Shown: one piece after another, positions 43 through 16,100 of the stretch | Numbering within the stretch: position 1 is the stretch's first letter | Layout of the letters: every line of letters starts with the position of its first letter | From: Prevotella sp. E13-27 | GTDB lineage: Bacteria; Bacteroidota; Bacteroidia; Bacteroidales; Bacteroidaceae | DNA: 64,000 nucleotides | Direction: 5' to 3' | Assembly (NCBI RefSeq): GCF_023217965.1 | Contig: NZ_JALPSC010000001.1 | Span: 1,736,001 to 1,800,000 of the forward strand | Made by a program: the position numbers and the translations under genes | The notes under the pieces: model-generated | Seen by the model: the letters and a program-made list of their open reading frames with translations, nothing else | What the model was told of the DNA's origin: nothing | Databases searched by the model: none

Positions 43-1246
43 ATGGGTGTATATTTAAATATTGGTAATTCGGGGTTCCAAAGCGCCAGAAATAGTGACT
101 ATGTTGATAAATCAGAGCTGATAGCAGTTATCAACCAGACTCTTTTCACAGAGCGCCGCTTCAGTTGCGTTACGCGATGTCGCCGTTTTGGCAAGTCACT
201 GGCTGCCAAGATGCTCAATGCTTATTACGACCAGTCGTGTGATTCGCGCTCTTTATTCGAGGACCTTCTTATTGCCCACCACCCATCGTTTGAGACCCAT
301 CTCAACAAATATCCTGTAATTTATGTGGATATTTCAGATTTTGTTACTCGTTACAAGGATGCAAATATCATGCAACATATTAATGAGGACGTGAAATCTG
401 ATGTACATGCAGCATATCCTGACATTCCCTTACAAGAGGGTGATGATTTAATGGCGTTGCTTATTCGCATTGCAGAAGCAAAGGAACAGCAATTCATATT
501 TATAATCGACGAATGGGATGCCATATGCCGTGAGTTCAAAGCTGGTACAAAGGTTATGGACGATTATGTCAATTGGCTGCGTCGTCTGTTTAAAGCGGCT
601 AACAGCAACAAGGTCTTTGCTGGGACCTACATGACTGGTATCCTGCCTATTAAGAAGTATCAGACAGAATCTGCACTGAACAACTTTACAGAGTATTCGA
701 TGGTTAATCCTGGTCGTTTGGCTGGCTGTTTTGGATTCACGAAGTCGGAAGTAAAGGCTTTATGCCAAAAGGAAAACGTAGATTTCGATGAAATGGAAAA
801 ATGGTATGACGGCTATAAGCTGGGCAGTGAACCATCCATTTTTAACCCCAACTCTGTTATGCAGGCTCTTTGGGAAGGACGCTGTCGTAGCTACTGGGCT
901 ACCACTGGCGCTTACGATGCTGTAGCATCATACATTCAGATGAATTACAATGGTCTGAAAGATGACATATTGAGAATGCTTAGCGGAGGAAGGTGCAAAG
1001 TTGACCCTACAGGCTTCCAGAATGACATGTCAGTGATAAGAACTAAAGACGATGTATTGACAGTACTGATTCATTTAGGTTATCTGGCCTATGATTTTGA
1101 CACAAGCGACTGTTATATTCCCAATCGAGAAGTGGAAGGTGAACTCATCAATGCTGTCAAGTATTTAAATTGGCAATAAGTAATTGTATCTCGTTGGAAT
1201 CAACTATGATGTTAAGACAAAGAAACACGAGTGCATCATCAGAAAT
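43..1246 (+). pseudogene. AAA-ATPase-like / DUF1703 family gene, broken by internal deletion
   Basis: The open frame 43-1179 encodes 378 residues that match the N-terminal ATPase-like part of the family usually annotated AAA-ATPase-like plus DUF1703 (PD-(D/E)XK-type nuclease). Visible are the degenerate P-loop region RRFGKS (about residues 47-52) and the Walker-B-like FIIDEWDA (about 153-160). Family members are normally about 520-580 residues, so the nuclease half is missing. After the stop, in another frame, 1187-1246 encodes LVGINYDVKTKKHECII, which resembles the extreme C-terminus of full-length members. The gene has therefore lost most of its C-terminal domain by a deletion that also shifted the frame. 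The start is uncertain because only 42 bases precede it. Members of this family are abundant and often decayed in Prevotella and Bacteroides. Their cellular role is not established. Confidence 0.75.
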
Positions 1247-1353
1247 TTCTCTCACCTCTCACCTCTAACTTAGAAAGTTGGTACTATAAGAACTCTGATA
1301 CCATGCTTGTGTTTGCCCGCAGGTCGTTGTAAAGGAAAAAAACATAAAGAACA

Positions 1354-1479
1354 CTTTTTGATGTTTGTAGCTCCTGCAGAGCTCTTGTTATAATGGCTAT
1401 GGCCTTGTCTTTAAGAGCAAGCTCTTACGACCAGACCATAGCCATTATAACATAACTTCGTTATACAAACATCAAAAAG
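1354..1479 (+). repeat. Cloverleaf-type palindromic element, copy A1
   Basis: The two ends form a perfect 15-bp outer stem (1354-1368 with 1465-1479). Inside are a hairpin AGCTC-CTGCA-GAGCT (1369-1383), a perfect 16-bp arm (1387-1402 with 1436-1451) capped by TAAGAGC-AA-GCTCTTA (1412-1427), and a third hairpin ATAAC-TTC-GTTAT (1452-1464). Almost no base at the junction is unpaired. A second copy in opposite orientation lies at 1899-2025. No ORF is supported. It may be a structured RNA, a folded single-stranded DNA substrate or a small non-autonomous mobile element. Confidence 0.85.
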
Positions 1480-1481
1480 CA

Positions 1482-1503
1482 AAAACATCGGCTTTTCAAG
1501 CCT
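1482..1503 (+). repeat. Short repeat containing GGCTTTTCAAGCC
   Basis: AAAAACATC followed by the small palindrome GGCTT-TTC-AAGCC and an A-run. A near copy lies at 6189-6210 in the same orientation, and another at 6523-6546 in reverse orientation. All three flank the palindromic repeats of this accessory zone. It resembles a weak terminator hairpin, but the T-run lies on the minus-strand reading of this copy, so its function is unclear. Confidence 0.55.
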
Positions 1504-1590
1504 TAAAAAAACTGGCACATCAATGGCCTTAACATTCTATCAAAATGTCATTACCAACAAGGAAATCAACATAATGCTTATGTTTTATCT

Positions 1591-1803
1591 GTTTCGGATG
1601 TATAAAAACCACAGATTACGCAGATTACACGAATTTTAATGACTATTACAGCGGCTAAGCCGCGATTATGTGTGATTTCACAGATTGCTTCGCGTAGCTA
1701 ATCGCAACTTTAGTTGCAGTAATCAGAATAAAAATCTCATCATAGTGCGCAGCCATAATCTGTAAAATCTGTGAAATCTGTGGTAGTTTTTATATATGCG
1801 AAA
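1591..1803 (+). repeat. Long palindromic repeat with 9-nt periodic arms, copy B1
   Basis: The outer arms pair as TTTCGGATGTATAAAAAC with the reverse complement of 1786-1803, then CCACAGATT with AATCTGTGG. The arms are built of 9-nt units around CAGATT. The core (about 1645-1778) holds hairpins GCGGC-TAA-GCCGC and GCAACT-TT-AGTTGC. An inverted copy is at 6254-6465. The cores are almost identical while the left arms differ. No coding potential is seen. With A1, A2 and short repeats, this fills the gene-free stretch 1247-2035. Confidence 0.8.
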
Positions 1804-1898
1804 GTTGAGTAATTCATATCTATAAATGTGTTTTATTGACAGAACGAAGAATGTACTAATCTTTGTTTTTTAGATTGTGATAACAATCGATGTTTTTG

Positions 1899-2025
1899 CT
1901 TTTCGAGGTTTGTAATAACGAAGTTATGTGATAAGTGGTGTGGGGTTGGCGTAAGAGCTCGCTCTTAAAGACAAGCCCATGCCACTTATCACAAAAGCTC
2001 TGCAGGAGCTACAAACCTCGAAAAG
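1899..2025 (-). repeat. Cloverleaf-type palindromic element, copy A2
   Basis: Same layout as 1354-1479, read on the minus strand. The outer 15-bp stem is 1899-1913 with 2011-2025. Hairpins are ATAAC-GAA-GTTAT (1915-1927), TAAGAGC-TC-GCTCTTA (1952-1967) and AGCTC-TGCAG-GAGCT (1996-2010). The long inner arm is 1928-1944 with 1976-1992. The three short hairpins match the other copy, whereas outer and inner stems differ by paired changes that keep the pairing. Two positions of the inner arm pair only as G-U wobbles, and only in a plus-strand transcript. Confidence 0.8.
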
Positions 2026-2043
2026 TTTTTTTCTGGTTTTTGT

Positions 2044-2073
2044 GGTTCTTCTTCAATTTAGTTGAAAAAGCAG
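2044..2073 (+). repeat. Left terminal inverted repeat of the ISL3 element
   Basis: Identical over 30 bp to the reverse complement of 3915-3944. Confidence 0.95.
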
Positions 2074-2228
2074 CAATAGTTCGATGCATTGAAAATCATG
2101 TTTCTTTAAGTGTTTAAGAGGAGACAGAATGAAATGTATTGTCGGCTTCCATATTAAACTTAATTAACTAACTATCAAGTATTTACAGTAAATAAAATTA
2201 GGATATTTGACATATTTTTTGTACCTTT

Positions 2229-3935
2229 ATGTCGCCAAACAAGTGGTTCAAAATCATGTCAAAACATCCTAATAGCGACAAAAGTACTAATAATAATTGT
2301 CATAACCAAACTTTAGAGGCATCAAATAACGACAACCTCAAAATTTCTTCCCTGTATCCGAATGCAGAACTCAGCATAGAGGATGTGGAGGTGCTTCCAG
2401 ATACCATCCATATATATGCTCGTAGTTCTCTCTCCTATGGTATCTGCCCATATTGCGGCAGTCACAGTAAAAAGATACACAGCAGATATATGCGTCACGT
2501 TACAGACCTTCCCATACTCGGCAGGCGCACTATTCTTCATCTAGAGATGCGTAAGTTCTTCTGCCACGATGAAGATTGCAGCCACAAGACTTTTGCGGAG
2601 CAGCCTGGGACGGAGGTATTCCGATACCGTAGAAGAAGCAGGCGCTGTGAGGTTTTGGTGTCAAAACTGTCACTTGACTCATCGGCAGGCAAGAGCAGCA
2701 GCCATCTTCGTATAATGGGAATACCTATTAGCAGGGCAACTGTCCTTCGCGACATCCACCGCATGCCTCTTCCCGTATATCCGGATATCGATCGGATAGG
2801 TGTTGACGACTGGGCTTTCCGTAAGGGCGTATCCTATGGTAGCGTGATTGTCAATCTGCGGACGGGTATGATCATAGACCTGTTAGGTAATCGTGAGGAG
2901 GAAACTTTCAGGGAGTGGCTGGACAGACACATAAAGGTGCAGATTGTCAGTCGTGACAGATCCACCGACTACTCTGCTGCCGTCGCAAGTACCAAGCGCC
3001 TGATCAAGGAGGTTGCCGACCACTTTCATCTAGTAAAGAATGCCTCCGATATGATAGCACGTGTTGTCAGTGAAAACTACGAGGATTACAGGATGTTAGT
3101 CATGGGAGAACGCAAGACCAACGATATCAGTAATGGCACCAACGTGCAACGGCAGGCAAAATTCAATCAGGTCAAGATTCTACAGGCCAAGGGTATGAGC
3201 AAGGGTGAGATAGTCAAAGCTACCGGCATATTCTATACAACTGTACAGTCGTATATGGACATCACATCATTACCTGCCCGTAAGAGCAATGCCCAAGTTG
3301 ACTTCTCAATGCACGAGGCCTATGTGGAGACGGAATACGCCAAAGGCAGGCCTCTGTCCAAGATATTCAAGGACATCAACAAAGATGGTAGCTACAAGTC
3401 AATGGGGCCTTATTACCGCCATTTCCATTATTTGTCAGATGGCCATCGGGGACCGCGTAAGACTGAAGAGCAACACGTGCAGGCAAAGCGTGTCGCTGAG
3501 GTGTCACACAAAGAACCGCTTTTGCCTATTCACATGATGGCCAATATCATAAATAGGTCTGTAAGAGGCATGAAACTCAATGGGCAAGAGGACACGCTTA
3601 TCAGAAAATTGCTCTCACTGAAGTGGTTCTCAACTCTGTATTATGCAGTTTCTGAATTCAATGAACTTCTCAAGTCTAATAATCCTAGACGACTTACCAA
3701 ATGGATAGAAGAATACAGACATACCTCCATTGAAAGGCTTAGACGCTTCGTTGATGGTGTGAACAGAGACCTCAAAGCCGTTATGAACTGCATCGTCTTA
3801 CCTATATCCAATGGCATTGTCGAAGGATTTGTCAACAAGATAAAGGAGGTCAAACGGTGCATGTATGGCAGGGCTGGACTGGAACTGCTTAAGAGAAAAC
3901 TTATTCTGGAGCCTCTGCTTTTTCAACTAAATTGA
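2229..3935 (+). CDS. ISL3-family transposase
   Basis: 568-residue DDE transposase that would cut and rejoin the IS ends around it. The N-terminus has the ISL3 zinc-binding domain, with Cys pairs CPYC (73-76) and C112/C117. A helix-turn-helix region follows at about 140-175, then the DDE_Tnp_ISL3 core. Candidate catalytic residues are D193 in GVDDWAF, D243 in SRDRSTDY and E532 in NGIVEGF. A long insertion between the second Asp and the Glu is usual for ISL3. The first ATG is used here. The ATG at 2256 (residue 10) is an equally possible start. The stop codon lies in the right terminal repeat, and no frame break is seen. Confidence 0.93.
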   Translation: MSPNKWFKIMSKHPNSDKSTNNNCHNQTLEASNNDNLKISSLYPNAELSIEDVEVLPDTIHIYARSSLSYGICPYCGSHSKKIHSRYMRHVTDLPILGRRTILHLEMRKFFCHDEDCSHKTFAEQPGTEVFRYRRRSRRCEVLVSKLSLDSSAGKSSSHLRIMGIPISRATVLRDIHRMPLPVYPDIDRIGVDDWAFRKGVSYGSVIVNLRTGMIIDLLGNREEETFREWLDRHIKVQIVSRDRSTDYSAAVASTKRLIKEVADHFHLVKNASDMIARVVSENYEDYRMLVMGERKTNDISNGTNVQRQAKFNQVKILQAKGMSKGEIVKATGIFYTTVQSYMDITSLPARKSNAQVDFSMHEAYVETEYAKGRPLSKIFKDINKDGSYKSMGPYYRHFHYLSDGHRGPRKTEEQHVQAKRVAEVSHKEPLLPIHMMANIINRSVRGMKLNGQEDTLIRKLLSLKWFSTLYYAVSEFNELLKSNNPRRLTKWIEEYRHTSIERLRRFVDGVNRDLKAVMNCIVLPISNGIVEGFVNKIKEVKRCMYGRAGLELLKRKLILEPLLFQLN

Positions 3936-3944
3936 AGAAGAACC
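3915..3944 (-). repeat. Right terminal inverted repeat of the ISL3 element
   Basis: Reverse complement of the left repeat. The last codons and TGA stop of the transposase lie inside this repeat, so the gene uses the IS end as coding sequence. Confidence 0.95.
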
Positions 3945-4000
3945 GTTTTTGTTAAAATAAACACAGTGGAGGACGCCGATAAAAACTATCCTCTCACTTC

Positions 4001-10526: not shown

Positions 10527-13160
10527 ATGAAAACCAAAAGACAAAGCCTACTATGGGTGATGGCTGCAGGATTCCTGTTGGCAGGAAGCGGAGCTCTGAC
10601 TTCGTGTACTGACAAGTACGACCTTGATGAGAGGACTCCAGGCGGTTGGGGTTCGACCATCTACACGTGGCTTGAACAACAAGGTAACTACACCAACACC
10701 GTACGCTTGATTGACGAGCTTGGACAGAAGGAAGTTCTGTCTAAGACAGGTTCGAGAACGCTTTTTGCAGCCGATGACGCTGCCTTTGAGCGTTTCTTTA
10801 ACAGTGACAACGGTTGGGGAGTTAAGAGCTATGACCAGCTCTCCCTTGCCCAGAAGAAACTGCTGCTCTATGGTAGCATGATTGACAACTCTATTCAGGC
10901 AAGTGCTCTCTCCACCATTGAGGGTACTCCTCTGCGTGAAGGACAGTGCATGCGTCGTTTCACATTCCTCGATGAGTACGACTCTGTGCCCGTTCTCAAG
11001 CCAAGTCAGATGCCTGTCAATAAGTACTGGCAGCGTCATATCGATGCTGGCAAGGACATGGTCTGCTTCCAGGACGGTTCGCGCATTCCAATGCTGCTTT
11101 TCCTCCAGGGCTTCATGACCAACAACAAGATTACCAACGAAGACTATAACTTCCTGTTCAACCATCAGACTAATCGTGAGGATGGTGACGCCAGCGTTAA
11201 TGGTAAGAAGGTTATCAATCAGAACGTTCGTTGCGGTAATGGCTTCATTCATGTTGTAAATGACGTGGTTAGCCCACTGCCCAACATGGCAAAGATTATT
11301 TCCGACAAAGAGCAGTGTAAGATATATACCAGACTGCTGAACCGCTTCTGTGCTCCTTATCCCGATGACAAGGATCTCACGAAGACTGTAGAATATAACC
11401 GTATCTATGGTACAAATGTCGATACAGTCTATACAATGAGATACCTCAACGACAAGCGCGATAATGAGACTTTCGAGACTCCTGATGGCGCTGTGGTTAT
11501 CTCACGTGAGGGCGCAGCACAGAAGATTAAGAATCCAACTCTTACTTTCGACCCAGGATGGAACGCTTACTATTCTGCCAGCCACAAGAATACCAGCGAG
11601 GGCAATGTTGCCGAGCAGCGTGATATGGCTGTAATGCTCGTTCCTACCGACAAGGCCATGATGGACTACTGGAACGACGAAAATAAAGGAAAGCCACTGA
11701 GAGACAATTTCCCCGGCGGATGGGACACTGTTGATGACAAGGTGATTATTGAGTTGCTCCGTCTTAACATGCTTCCTTCATTCATATCGTCTGTTCCTTC
11801 AAAGTTCGCCGGCGTGCTTAACGACGCTAACGATCCCATGGGTCTGAAGGAGAGTAGCGTTGACTCTGTTTGGATGGCTTGTAACGGTGCTGTATATCAG
11901 CTGAACACCGTTTATCCTCCAACAGCTTACGTCTGCGTGTCATTCCCAACCATCGTTGACAAGAGCTTGCGTATCATTGATTGGGCCATTGAGCAGTGTA
12001 AGTACAGCTTCTATCTGAAGGCTCTCGGTACCACTTACAGCTTCTTCGTTCCAAATAACCATGGACTGATAGAATATGTTGACCCATGTTCTTACGGAAA
12101 GTCACAGCTCCAGCTGCTCAGCTTCCGTTGGGACGATGCTTCCGGTGTTTCTGCTGTCATCTATGACTATGACCCCTCGACAGGCTATCGTGACTCTGTA
12201 GGCGTGACAACCGACTACAACCGTCTTGTAGGCTGTCTGAGAGATATTCTTGACACACATATCGTGATGGGTAACGTTTGGGAAGGCAATAAGACCTACT
12301 ATCGTACTAAGAACGGTACAGGTATCCGCGTGAACAAGAATCCTGACGACGAGCACATGACTGTTGAAGGCAGCTATCAGATGTATGACAGCAAGCAGCC
12401 TGTTCCTGTTGCAAAGGTTTGGGATCAGCGCAAGGAGGTAACCGGCGGTAACGGTAAGACATATATCCTCGATGCCCAGCCTATCATGGGTACACGCAAG
12501 ACCGTGTGCAACCAGCTGGAGAATGTTCCTGACTTCCAGTATTTCTTCGACTTGCTCGACAAGAGCGGTCTGGCATCCGAGTTCTATAACCCCGGCACTG
12601 GCAAGAAGGAAGACAACAAGGCTTGTGGCGGTAAGAACATAACACTGTTCAATACCTATCATTATACTATATATGTACCAAGCAACGATGCTATCCAGAA
12701 TCTGTTCGATACAGGTCAGCTGCCTACATGGGATGACTATCAGAATAAGATTGATGCAGGTAATACCCTTGGTGCTACTGAAGACTCTCTTAAGATTGTG
12801 AACTTCCTGAAGTATCACATTCAGGATAATGCCCTTTATATCGGTGCCAACAATGAGTCTGGTGACTTCGAGACCTCTTGTATCAATGAGGATACAGGAC
12901 GTTTTATGATGCTTCACGCAGAACTTAAGGACGATGAAATCGTCGTTACTGATGGCACTGGAGCAGTTCACAAGGTGACAAAGCAGACCTATTTCGACGG
13001 TGATGGCATTGAACAGCCTCTTTATAACATCCAGGCACGTGAATACGTGTATGATGGACAAAATGCTGCTACTGCAACATCGTTGTACACCACGTCTTCT
13101 GCAGTTATCCATTTGATTGACTCACCATTGCGTAATGGTGCAAAGAATGGTTCATGGTAA
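10527..13160 (+). CDS. Large FAS1 (fasciclin)-domain surface lipoprotein
   Basis: 877 residues. A lipoprotein signal peptide ends in the lipobox ALTSC (Cys27), so the protein should be anchored in the outer membrane. The first FAS1 domain spans about 45-245 and shows the typical FAADDAAFERFF and GFIHVVNDVV motifs. More FAS1-like segments follow, for example around 475-600 (FFVPNNHGLIEY) and 685-865 (TIYVPSNDAIQNLF). FAS1 domains mediate adhesion or ligand binding. In SusCD loci such proteins take the position of SusE/SusF-type glycan-binding lipoproteins. It is the first gene of the operon, 33 bp before susC. A glycan-binding role is inferred from position. Confidence 0.8.
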   Translation: MKTKRQSLLWVMAAGFLLAGSGALTSCTDKYDLDERTPGGWGSTIYTWLEQQGNYTNTVRLIDELGQKEVLSKTGSRTLFAADDAAFERFFNSDNGWGVKSYDQLSLAQKKLLLYGSMIDNSIQASALSTIEGTPLREGQCMRRFTFLDEYDSVPVLKPSQMPVNKYWQRHIDAGKDMVCFQDGSRIPMLLFLQGFMTNNKITNEDYNFLFNHQTNREDGDASVNGKKVINQNVRCGNGFIHVVNDVVSPLPNMAKIISDKEQCKIYTRLLNRFCAPYPDDKDLTKTVEYNRIYGTNVDTVYTMRYLNDKRDNETFETPDGAVVISREGAAQKIKNPTLTFDPGWNAYYSASHKNTSEGNVAEQRDMAVMLVPTDKAMMDYWNDENKGKPLRDNFPGGWDTVDDKVIIELLRLNMLPSFISSVPSKFAGVLNDANDPMGLKESSVDSVWMACNGAVYQLNTVYPPTAYVCVSFPTIVDKSLRIIDWAIEQCKYSFYLKALGTTYSFFVPNNHGLIEYVDPCSYGKSQLQLLSFRWDDASGVSAVIYDYDPSTGYRDSVGVTTDYNRLVGCLRDILDTHIVMGNVWEGNKTYYRTKNGTGIRVNKNPDDEHMTVEGSYQMYDSKQPVPVAKVWDQRKEVTGGNGKTYILDAQPIMGTRKTVCNQLENVPDFQYFFDLLDKSGLASEFYNPGTGKKEDNKACGGKNITLFNTYHYTIYVPSNDAIQNLFDTGQLPTWDDYQNKIDAGNTLGATEDSLKIVNFLKYHIQDNALYIGANNESGDFETSCINEDTGRFMMLHAELKDDEIVVTDGTGAVHKVTKQTYFDGDGIEQPLYNIQAREYVYDGQNAATATSLYTTSSAVIHLIDSPLRNGAKNGSW

Positions 13161-13193: not shown

Positions 13194-16100
13194 ATGAAAC
13201 GACTAATTCTATTATTTTCATTTTTTAATTTTTTGATTGCTGCCAATGCTCAGCAGGCTGGCGATATCATCAGCGGTACCGTTAACGATGCGTTCGGACC
13301 AGTGATGATGGCAAACGTCGTTGAGCTCGATGCTTCAAACCGTATCGTGGCTTCGGCAGTCACAGATATGAACGGTAACTTCTCGTTCAAGCTGAAGAAT
13401 CCTAAGGATAAGCTGCGTGTCACATTCGTGGGATACAAGACAGTGACTCTGCCAATTAATAAAAAGAAGTATGTAGTAAAGATGGAAGATGCCACGACTC
13501 TTAAGGAAGTGACTGTCGTGTCAAAGCGCCGTGCACAAGGCTCTGGTCTGGCTATTCCTGAAGATGAGATCTCTACTGCCCGACAGACCATTAGCATGAA
13601 GGAGTTCGACGGTCTGGCTATCACCACCGTCGATGAGGCTCTGCAGGGACGTATCGCAGGTCTTGACATTGTTGCAAACTCTGGTAACCTCGGTGCAGGA
13701 ACGTCAATGCGCCTCCGTGGTGTGTCAACCATCAACGGCTCAAGTGAGCCTCTGATTGTTGTCGATGGCAACGTGTTGAACGCAAACACAAGTAACTTTG
13801 ACTTCCAGAGCGCCAACGAGGAGAGCTTCGCACAGCTGCTGAACGTTAACCCTGAGGATATTGAGAGCATCTCAGTCCTGAAGGATGCTACTGCAACAGC
13901 CATCTGGGGTTCTCAGGGTTCTAACGGTGTTATCGAGATTAAGACCAAGCGTGGTGCACGTGGTAAGACCAAGGTAAGCTATAGCTTCCGTCTCACAGGC
14001 ACCTATCAGCCTGAGGGCTACAAGATGCTTAATGGTGACGAATATACCATGATGATGAAGGAAGAGTTCTTCAACCCCACTATGAGTGACGAGGCAAGTA
14101 ACATTCCTGAGATCAGCTACAAGCAGAACTTTGCTGAGCGCAACATGTATGACGATAATACCGACTGGCTCAGTGAGGTGAAGAAGGTTGGTTGGCGTCA
14201 GAACCACTACGTTGCTCTTACCGGTGGTGGTGAGAAGGCAAACTTCCGTATCGGTGCCGGTTACGACCGTGAGACTGGTTCTATCATCAAGCAGCAGCTC
14301 GACCGTTTCACCTCGCGCGTGAACCTTGACTATTTCGTCAGTGACCGCATCAAGATCGAGACAAATATCTCGCTCACCTATACCAAGAACCAGAAGAACA
14401 ATGGTGACCTGCTTTCTATAGCATACAAGAAGATGCCAAACATGTCTATCTATGAGGAGGACAATAATGGTAACGACCTTCCTGAGTACTACTCTATGCT
14501 GTCAACGGCCACACCTTCTATTAAGGGTAATGCGAACGACGGTAATGCACAGATTAACCTTAAGAACCCAATCGCTCTGGCTAATCTGGCTAAGAACAAT
14601 ACCACAAGCTACAACATTGAGCCTGAGTTCAAGATGCACTATAAGCTCCTGAGCTTTGATGATGAGAAGACACGTCTTGACTATGAAGGTAAGGTGGTGT
14701 TCAGCATCTTTAACCAGACCGATGACTCGTTCATGCCAATGGCACTTAACAACAAGACATGGAACAACTCTGGTAACAATACTTCTACAACAAGCTCGTC
14801 AAAGAGATTTGGTATCACAACAACCCATACCCTGACATTCACTCCTGTATTCAAGAACAAGGACCACTTCGTAACAATGATGTTGCGTGGTCAGCTCAAC
14901 AGCGGTGAGTCAAACTCTCAGAGCACTACTACATGGGGCCTGCCATCAGGAACTATCCAGAGCACTGCAGCAGAGGGTATCATCAGCGGTATGAACACCG
15001 GTAGCGGACAGTGGCGCAGCATCTACCTTACTTACTCTGCCCACTATGCTTACAAGGGACGCTACATGGCCGACTTCTCTGTACGTCGTGACGGTAGCAC
15101 ACAGTTCGGTGGCGACCAGCGCTGGGGTAACTTTCCTGCATTCTCAGTACGTTGGAACATCAGCAAGGAGCCTTGGTTCAAGAAGACCCTGCCATTCGTT
15201 TCAATGCTGTCTCTCCGCCCAGGTTGGGGTATCGTAGGTCGTCAGCCCGGTCAGGAGTATCTCTACTTCTCTAAGTATTCTCAGGGTGACGGCTATATCG
15301 GCGGTTCTACTATCCAGAGCAACATTCAGCTTAAGAACCTTAAGTGGGAGCAGAAAGAGACCTACAACGTCGGTCTCGACTTCGGCTTCTTCGATGAGCG
15401 CATCACCGGTAACGTGGAGATGTACTGGCAGTACACAACAGACATGTTGATGGCTAACCGCGCCATTCCTTCTTCTTCAGGTTATGCAAGTCTTGCTTGG
15501 CAGAACGTGGGTAAGATGAAGAACGTTGGTTGGGAGTTCAACCTCAATGGTAATAGAATCGTGAAGATTGGCAAGGCTGCCTTTGACTTCAACGTTACAT
15601 TCGCAAACAATAAGAACCAGCTTACCGAGATGGATGAGTCTTGTCTCACCAGCCTTAACGATGAGTTCGGCTTCCGTAACGGACAGTATCTGAACCGTGT
15701 TGAGCTTAATCGCGCACTCGGTAGCATCTACGGTTTCCGCTATAAGGGCGTTTACCAGTACTCTCGTTATTCTGCTGAGGAGATCAAGGGCATCAGCGGT
15801 CCTAACGCTCCTGTAGCACACGATGCTGACGGCAACGTGGTGCTCGACGAGCACGGCATGGCTAAGCCAATGATGTTTGCTGTAGGCAAGAACAACTACG
15901 AGTTCAAGGGTGGTGACGCTTGCTATGAGGATATCAACCACGATGGACAGATCAATGAGTACGATATTGTTTACCTCGGCTCTTCTCTGCCAAAGATTAC
16001 TGGCGGTTTCGGCTTCAAGGTAAATATTGGTCGTTTCTCTTGGAACAACCAGTTCAACTTCCGTTATGGTAACAAGATTATCAATGCAGCACGTATGAAC

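Follow-up and report, generated by a model that had tools for sequence, protein, structure and literature searches.

The two inverted cloverleafs near the start of the window (the whole stretch of DNA analyzed, 64,000 nucleotides) are the two ends of one element, not two separate elements. The best explanation for them, with a probability of roughly 0.6, is a mobile element that consists of cloverleafs and a gene for a GxxExxY nuclease. Positions 1306-2043 and 3945-3966 are probably an ORF-less doublet of this dispersed small mobile element. The doublet architecture, the tie to one GxxExxY subfamily, an empty site, a difference of cloverleafs at a fixed site and selection on the outward-reading strand are all evident from sequence comparison. 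The nuclease would drive the movement, as judged from its position, its conservation and the pattern of exchange.

The doublet in the window

The preliminary description of this DNA proposed two inverted cloverleaf elements sharing three small hairpins (AGCTC/GAGCT, TAAGAGC/GCTCTTA, ATAAC/GTTAT). The two inverted copies were confirmed at 1354-1479 (plus strand) and 1899-2025 (minus strand), with arms (1338-1464 and 1915-2041) that are 81% complementary, and the three hairpins are present. The cloverleafs are the ends of one doublet and not separate elements. Beyond what was described, the pair has fixed flanks outside the stems, an additional small hairpin in each inner flank and an insertion in the right outer flank. 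The parts of the doublet are listed below, where B denotes the strand that reads outward, A the opposite strand, and R1 the type-1 covariance model, whose training set included both window copies.

1306..1353, plus strand: left outer flank, CTTGTGTTTGC, the worn inner part of a terminal-repeat-like end (aligned ends)
within 1306..1353, plus strand: A-rich flank GGAAAAAAACATAAAGAACA at the base of the left outer stem (aligned ends)
1354..1479, plus strand: left cloverleaf, type 1, A orientation, selected (B) strand minus (R1, 136.5 bits)
1369..1383, plus strand: small hairpin AGCTC-CTGCA-GAGCT of the left cloverleaf (folding)
1480..1512, plus strand: left inner flank, CAAAAACATCG, hairpin, TTAAAAAAAC (aligned ends)
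1490-1502: left inner hairpin GGCTTTTCAAGCC, terminator-like on the minus strand
1592..1803, no strand: unrelated repeat nested mid-doublet, with CACAGATT arrays and with arms at 1592-1612 and 1783-1803, no 60-aa ORF
1865..1898, plus strand: right inner flank, GTTTTTTA, hairpin, CGATGTTTTTG (aligned ends)
1873-1888: right inner hairpin GATTGTGATAACAATC, unlike the left inner hairpin in sequence, yet also paired
1899..2025, minus strand: right cloverleaf, type 1, selected (B) strand plus (R1, 140.4 bits)
2026..2043, plus strand: right outer flank TTTTTTTCTGGTTTTTGT, its final 8 bases the target repeat of the insertion sequence (IS)
2044..3944, plus strand: ISL3-family IS, transposase 2229-3935, 8-bp repeat GTTTTTGT, outside the element proper
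3945..3966, plus strand: remainder of the right outer flank past the IS, GTTTTTGTTAAAATAAACACAG

No ORF of at least 60 aa was found in window 1479-1899, and the ORF scan of this interval found no GxxExxY gene between the window cloverleafs. The window doublet is probably a gene-free form that is inactive or relies on a nuclease acting in trans. Past the IS it is flanked by convergent ORFs, one of which is AAA-ATPase-like and the other of which we take to be histidine ammonia-lyase. The right window cloverleaf is identical to the copy at genome position 1718592 at 127 of 127 positions. When the window doublet was compared with this duplicate doublet, the aligned flank letters were 94-96% identical (with gaps) and the left cloverleaf 87%.

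Several other features were observed around the doublet. The gene end GTGGAGGACGTAGATAA forms a 17-bp direct repeat bordering the duplicate doublet (genome C1 1717877 and 1718750), and the window doublet has a variant of it on the right side only. Beside the left end, 43 bp (window 1270-1312) are 93% similar to the 3-prime end of an ORF at genome 1718770-1718812. The noncoding nested repeat, with ends TTCGGATGT and ACATCCGAA, was found at window 1592-1803, at L044 ~1590-1800 and at L052 ~1205-1420; outside the window this repeat interrupts a type-2 cloverleaf, with AGATAA at the break, as judged by eye against intact type-2 copies. In the 17 own-genome stretches scanned, all three copies of the ISL3-family IS (window 2036-2043/3945-3952, L017:7781 and L104:8824) are inserted into cloverleaf-type elements at one identical base in the outer flank ACAAAAAC. 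These insertions carry the 8-bp repeat or its complement, indicating a target preference.

The cloverleaf fold and its selected strand

Each window copy folds into a cloverleaf with a four-way junction, and the changes in the stems are compensated. The outer stem had been described as 15 bp long and as differing at two positions; each copy has a perfect 16-bp stem, and the two stems do differ at two positions, both compensated. Relative to dinucleotide shuffles, folding energies gave z values of -9.5 to -11.7 as RNA and -8.7 to -12.5 as DNA, and none of 200 shuffles was as stable as the window copies in any of eight folds (both strands, RNA and DNA). Among the nine type-1 copies of the window genome, 17 of 57 pairs had double compensated changes, a count that includes the inner-flank hairpin and uses a structure that was itself predicted from these aligned copies. 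In a set of 16 type-1 copies drawn from several species, changes on both sides were seen in 11 of 42 pairs. The covariation score of these 16 copies, for a structure derived from the alignment being scored, was 0.120 versus 0.057 in shuffles, and none of 500 shuffles reached it. Sliding the pairing partner by 1-3 columns lowered the paired cells from 96% to 34-51%. Eight of the 16 sequences were retrieved by a pattern spanning helix 5 and the 3-prime half of helix 1, so invariance in these parts is by construction. Chance palindromes were ruled out by the shuffles and the covariation, and the view of the preliminary description that the fold is under selection is supported.

The unit is ~115-135 nt long and consists of an outer stem, a short hairpin, a long arm and another short hairpin, the arm often being capped by CUUG or CUCG. 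When non-redundant copies were folded on the outward strand, 87 of 98 formed a four-way junction, and the median outer stem had 14 pairs. The central loop contained CUUG in 50 of the 98; it read G(CUUG)C in 33 copies and G(CUCG)C in 21. CUUG, a favoured RNA tetraloop, was found in 2 of 284 loops of shuffled folds (loops of all positions). Single mismatches on strand A of 90 copies were unevenly distributed (A.C 61 versus G.T 14; C.T 96 versus A.G 8), as counted in folds made without G-U pairs and among related copies, so that the counts are not independent. On strand B these A.C and C.T mismatches become G.U and G.A, and strand B is more stable as RNA in 82 of the 90 copies. The sign of the mismatches was the same in all four main clades, each taken alone. 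Among eight singletons, A.C exceeded G.T in three, the reverse held in one (a mis-stranded hit) and four were tied. The two singletons with a sign against the strand result are L138 and L156:5040, and at the latter the model strand was wrong and the flanks read the opposite way. Strands were called by a model that allows G-U on strand A, so its bias runs against the strand-B result.

The mismatch bias on one strand and the dominance of CUUG and CUCG therefore indicate that the selected fold is that of strand B as RNA, possibly as ssDNA. Judged from these patterns, the fold is selected on one strand, as RNA or ssDNA, and not as a symmetric cruciform. It had been suggested earlier that the element is a structured RNA or an ssDNA moved by a HUH/Y1 transposase; the one-strand fold is retained here and the transposase is not, as discussed below. 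A search of window 1200-2300 against Rfam 15 gave 12 hits up to an E of 5, the best at 23.6 bits versus gathering thresholds of at least 42. With no hit near a gathering score in this interval, the earlier remark that no matching named family was known agrees with the search.

Family members and fixed flanks

The window genome has nine full-length type-1 copies (window 1354 and 1899; genome 1216061/1216492, 1717969/1718592, 1723927, 1733636 and 1957625). Walking out from the copies located some partner cloverleafs of quite different sequence. R1 nevertheless recognizes the own-genome type-2 and type-3 copies as having the same architecture, with scores of 38-52 bits, and two type-3 copies from other species reach 22-24 bits. 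The type-3 model gives type 2 a score of 49-62 bits and gives six of the nine type-1 copies 36-45. The window copies score 38.9 and 44.5 bits under R2, which was built without them.

Further copies with compensated stems, for which a covariance-model search had been proposed, were found in the genus. R1 matched 28 of 299 genomes (10 of 131 among the better genomes), of which 24 are firm and four (G014, G063, G163 and G308) have doubtful hits only. These four weak hits (L138, L140, L139 and L135, respectively) are probably not cloverleafs; they were kept in the 92-copy analyses and the 28-genome count and left out of the 98-copy loop analysis. An order-wide search with the type-1 model only and strict filters matched one of 393 genomes, that of the window. 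A DNA query against 59 relatives, 35 of them from the same genus, gave no matches. The element has so far been seen in one Prevotella-like genus. The named carriers are uncultured Prevotella, Prevotellaceae, Bacteroidaceae and Bacteroidales with red deer as the source, and the RUG-named carriers presumably come from the rumen.

The 92 copies collected form groups of 53, 16, 10 and 5 plus eight singletons at 0.72 identity, which was used instead of 0.62 because the latter merged 91 of the 92. The architecture and the fixed flanks are common to different sequence clades. The outer flank ACAAAAACCnnAAAAACC, immediately 5' of the outer stem, recurs across types, and the inner side across types consists of GCAAAAACACCG, a small variable hairpin and TAAAAAAC; the flanks are worn or divergent in some copies. 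Pairs within 900 bp faced inward in 18 of 19 cases and were direct in one, and many copies are single, without a partner.

Other arrangements were also seen. For example, contig G133:C38 (L143, L144) has 14 R1 hits in 36 kb, many of them between co-oriented genes. At L142:7840-10789, three type-1 copies in direct orientation alternate with small genes, resembling gene-plus-cloverleaf units, and one pair of these genes is HepT-like with a nucleotidyltransferase-like partner. At least two CRCAGA motifs within 120 nt were found in 16 of 92 outer flanks and in none of 92 inner flanks, as if replacing the terminal repeat. A candidate cassette array at genome 2090-2094 kb was rejected, since the repeated piece turned out to belong to a PIN-like gene (identified by eye), of which it forms the 3-prime end. 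This gene end resembles the type-3 inner flank and recurs behind other small genes every 1-2 kb (L102 ~12610-12710, 13720-13820 and 15770-15870). Window 1330-2043 had no match in 50,697 phage and 72,556 plasmid records. In viral contigs, type-1 and type-2 patterns were found in none and a type-3 16-mer in three, in which R1 had no hits. A phage or plasmid origin is unsupported by the phage, plasmid and viral-contig searches.

The GxxExxY nuclease gene

Complete elements have one GxxExxY PD-(D/E)XK nuclease gene between their cloverleafs. A GxxExxY ORF lies inside 3 of the 12 inward doublets whose gap was read (L098, L136 and L150), and the other nine gaps have none; such ORFs also occur, in a less regular arrangement, at L149 and L156. 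The survey from the gene side used models R1-R3 at an E of 0.01 or better. A cloverleaf adjoins 8 of 10 subfamily loci (L235-L238, L240, L241, L243 and L244), a figure composed of six of eight loci picked by score alone, L243, where adjacency was known beforehand, and L244, where a fragment of the gene lies at the end of a contig. The match at L240 is weak (27 bits), and neither the models nor folding identified a cloverleaf at L239 and L242. Among other GxxExxY loci, a cloverleaf was found at 3 of 40 (L215 with a strong match; L205 at 24 bits and L208 at 28 bits, both weak), a few of these 40 control loci lying near contig ends with short flanks. The control loci thus refute the cloverleaf as a general trait of GxxExxY genes. 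Folding energy alone, as a judge of structured flanks, gave no clean split. Of the five GxxExxY genes in the window genome, none is accompanied by a clear cloverleaf, and L205 is the only one with even a weak hit beside it.

GxxExxY is a large family for which, to our knowledge, no role is known. The five doublet ORFs tested all scored 90-104 bits on TIGR04256 (cut-off 35). The doublet ORFs are members of this known family by both of its models (TIGR04256 and PF13366), within which they form a divergent subfamily. D83, E93 and K95 are invariant in 40 GxxExxY sequences, and the predicted structure is a confident PD-(D/E)XK model (pLDDT 95). Three diverged pairs with finite dS had dN/dS values of 0.04-0.07 at a dS of 2.1-2.3, which is near saturation, and the closest pair (L150/L236), with very few changes, gave 1.17. 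PADLOC returned no known-defence match for two of the ORFs. The name GxxExxY is hardly used in the open-access literature searched and the Pfam accession is likewise rare; one passage, on CRISPR-associated RTs, reports a cas4 gene as a GxxExxY domain (PMC8934634).

Empty site and apparent exchange of cassettes

Loci L236 of G217 and L150 of G122 represent one site in two different species. In the relative G280 the neighbor genes abut, with no element and a single ACTTCGT, and in G122 and G217 this site holds an element with the 7-bp ACTTCGT or ACTTTGT at both ends, as read by eye. Inspection of empty sites had been proposed as a check on movement, and this site, empty in one relative and occupied in two, favors it. 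At L098, a doublet with another GxxExxY lies between the same two genes with other junctions.

The cloverleafs of G122 and G217 are 59% (left) and 56% (right) identical, versus 50% when shuffled. Identity of the rest is 94% for the left gene, 94% for the left outer flank, 98% for the ORF block, 86% for the right outer flank and 91% for the right gene. The breaks in identity sit at the foot of the outer stem, and all four cores fold as cloverleafs. In addition, two loci of G278 (L237 and L238) have the ORF block in common but not the cloverleafs. Unrelated cloverleafs in surroundings that are 86-98% identical imply that cassettes were exchanged; judged from these alignments, copies apparently trade cloverleafs as cassettes. 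Since G217 is 72% complete and G122 is in ~40 contigs, chimeric assembly at repeats is possible for this pair. The exchange could be read as gene conversion via the conserved flanks, with no nuclease; this route and nuclease cutting followed by repair would both do this.

Proposed mechanism and alternative explanations

We propose that transcripts leaving the nuclease gene would end in a strand-B cloverleaf and that the nuclease would bind the fold of the cloverleaf, not its sequence. Cutting at or beside the cloverleaf may then drive both insertion of the element and replacement of cloverleafs, which in ORF-less doublets would be carried out by a nuclease acting in trans. Against this explanation are the two of ten subfamily loci without a cloverleaf, the nine of twelve gaps without GxxExxY and the many single copies. 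In addition, ISAon1-type terminal repeats are found at the ends of some elements, a sign of a DDE transposase and an argument against movement driven by the nuclease. Alternatively, the doublets could be non-autonomous MITEs of ISAon1/ISL3-type IS, moved by such a transposase with the cloverleaf as a passenger or insulator. We regard this as unlikely, and the terminal repeats are kept as the main rival for movement of some copies. With up to 6 mismatches allowed, the end GGYTCACCWGYAAAAYYCTGTGTTTR was found no more than 100 nt outside the cloverleaf in 13 of 92 cases and in none of 92 shuffled flanks, and the terminal-repeat pattern occurred in 16 of 200 genomes, with one hit for the reversed control. 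In G107 this end directly adjoins a transposase gene of the ISAon1 family, and in G147, G158 and G204 it adjoins the last codons of such genes at contig edges. Decayed 8-9-bp flanking repeats were seen by eye at L006 and L092. The doublets that share this terminal repeat with ISAon1-type transposase genes are, however, a minority, as 79 of the 92 cloverleafs have no such end at up to 6 mismatches, and in G107 the gene directly follows the repeat without a cloverleaf. The G122/G217 element, with its visible empty site, has no ISAon1-type end, and the window genome (G000) has no match to a 255-aa piece of the ISAon1 transposase. At the window ends, only the inner CTTGTGTTTGC / AAACACAG part of the IS terminal repeat is left, and the left-flank copy has 11 mismatches to the full repeat. 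The MITE reading also leaves the GxxExxY gene and the cassette exchange unexplained.

The tie to one nuclease subfamily is likewise unexplained if the cloverleafs serve host genes as bidirectional terminators or 3-prime RNA elements that spread through ordinary recombination and are retained for a role in the host, a reading that we consider improbable. A T-rich flank follows each hairpin on strand B, and window 1180-2120 has four terminator-like sites, one being the left inner hairpin with its T-run, versus a mean of 0.8 in shuffles. By simple ORF calls that left out 7 ORF-overlapping copies, the upstream gene in the B direction was encoded on strand B for 50 of 77 copies and the next gene for 43 of 84. 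A conserved four-way junction is not needed for a terminator, however, and the preliminary description's view of the fold as unlike a plain terminator is supported. Of 29 single copies whose upstream gene is co-oriented, 23 are separated from it by more than 100 nt, and the type-1 model matched only the window genome among 393 in the order, which argues against a general host function. It is very unlikely that the doublets are REPIN-like and that a HUH/Y1 (RAYT-type) transposase moves a folded single strand, as the earlier suggestion had it. The inward-facing doublets are as in REPINs (PMC3116915), the strand-specific fold would suit ssDNA and the window genome has four Y1 genes, but a cloverleaf was found at none of these four loci when their flanks were read, and the gene inside the elements encodes a PD-(D/E)XK nuclease. 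The Y1 gene of L036 is bordered by its own, different inverted repeat. This locus (L036:1336-2130), with AGTGCACAATAGGGTCGGTTCCGCTGTGCAC downstream and its complement upstream, is likely a RAYT and its REP (by eye).

Relation to known systems and significance

REPINs with RAYT (TnpA_REP) are likewise inward doublets of a folded intergenic repeat, with spread within genomes and gene-free forms. They consist of short hairpins, whereas the elements described here consist of four-way-junction units, with two sequence types in one doublet, and the RAYT gene is a Y1 transposase where these elements have a PD-(D/E)XK nuclease. REPs are given as 20-40 nt with a GTAG or CGTC tag (PMC3733652); at ~115-135 nt, the cloverleaf units fall outside this size range. 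The pairing of a nuclease gene with a conserved structured RNA is shared with IS607 TnpB and its RAGATH-18 RNA (PMC11061315), and with TnpB/IscB elements. From both the present elements differ in having another nuclease fold, a cloverleaf at both ends, no guide segment seen and turnover of sequence under a kept structure. TnpB/IscB elements are small mobile elements in which a nuclease gene accompanies a conserved structured RNA, the omega RNA. PD-(D/E)XK homing endonucleases of group I introns also have their gene within a structured RNA, but there is no splicing context here. Lastly, ERIC is an intergenic imperfect palindrome of ~127 bp that is not a cloverleaf and has no gene.

The open-access literature searched had no description of such elements; most subscription papers were outside the scope of the search. 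It is possible, though we hold it only tentatively, that they represent a new class of mobile element that combines an RNA with a nuclease. In this class, GxxExxY, as a fold-specific PD-(D/E)XK nuclease, would act with the cloverleaf RNA of its own ends, a CUYG-capped four-way junction, to insert the element at new sites and to swap cassettes at old ones, the structure being kept while the sequence turns over. If true, this would be the first function for a large orphan family. Since one GxxExxY subfamily is tied to structured ends, its function is directly testable. The cassette exchange would be an unusual natural case of the fold alone being kept, and the exchanged cloverleafs would provide ready-made pairs of substrates for biochemistry.
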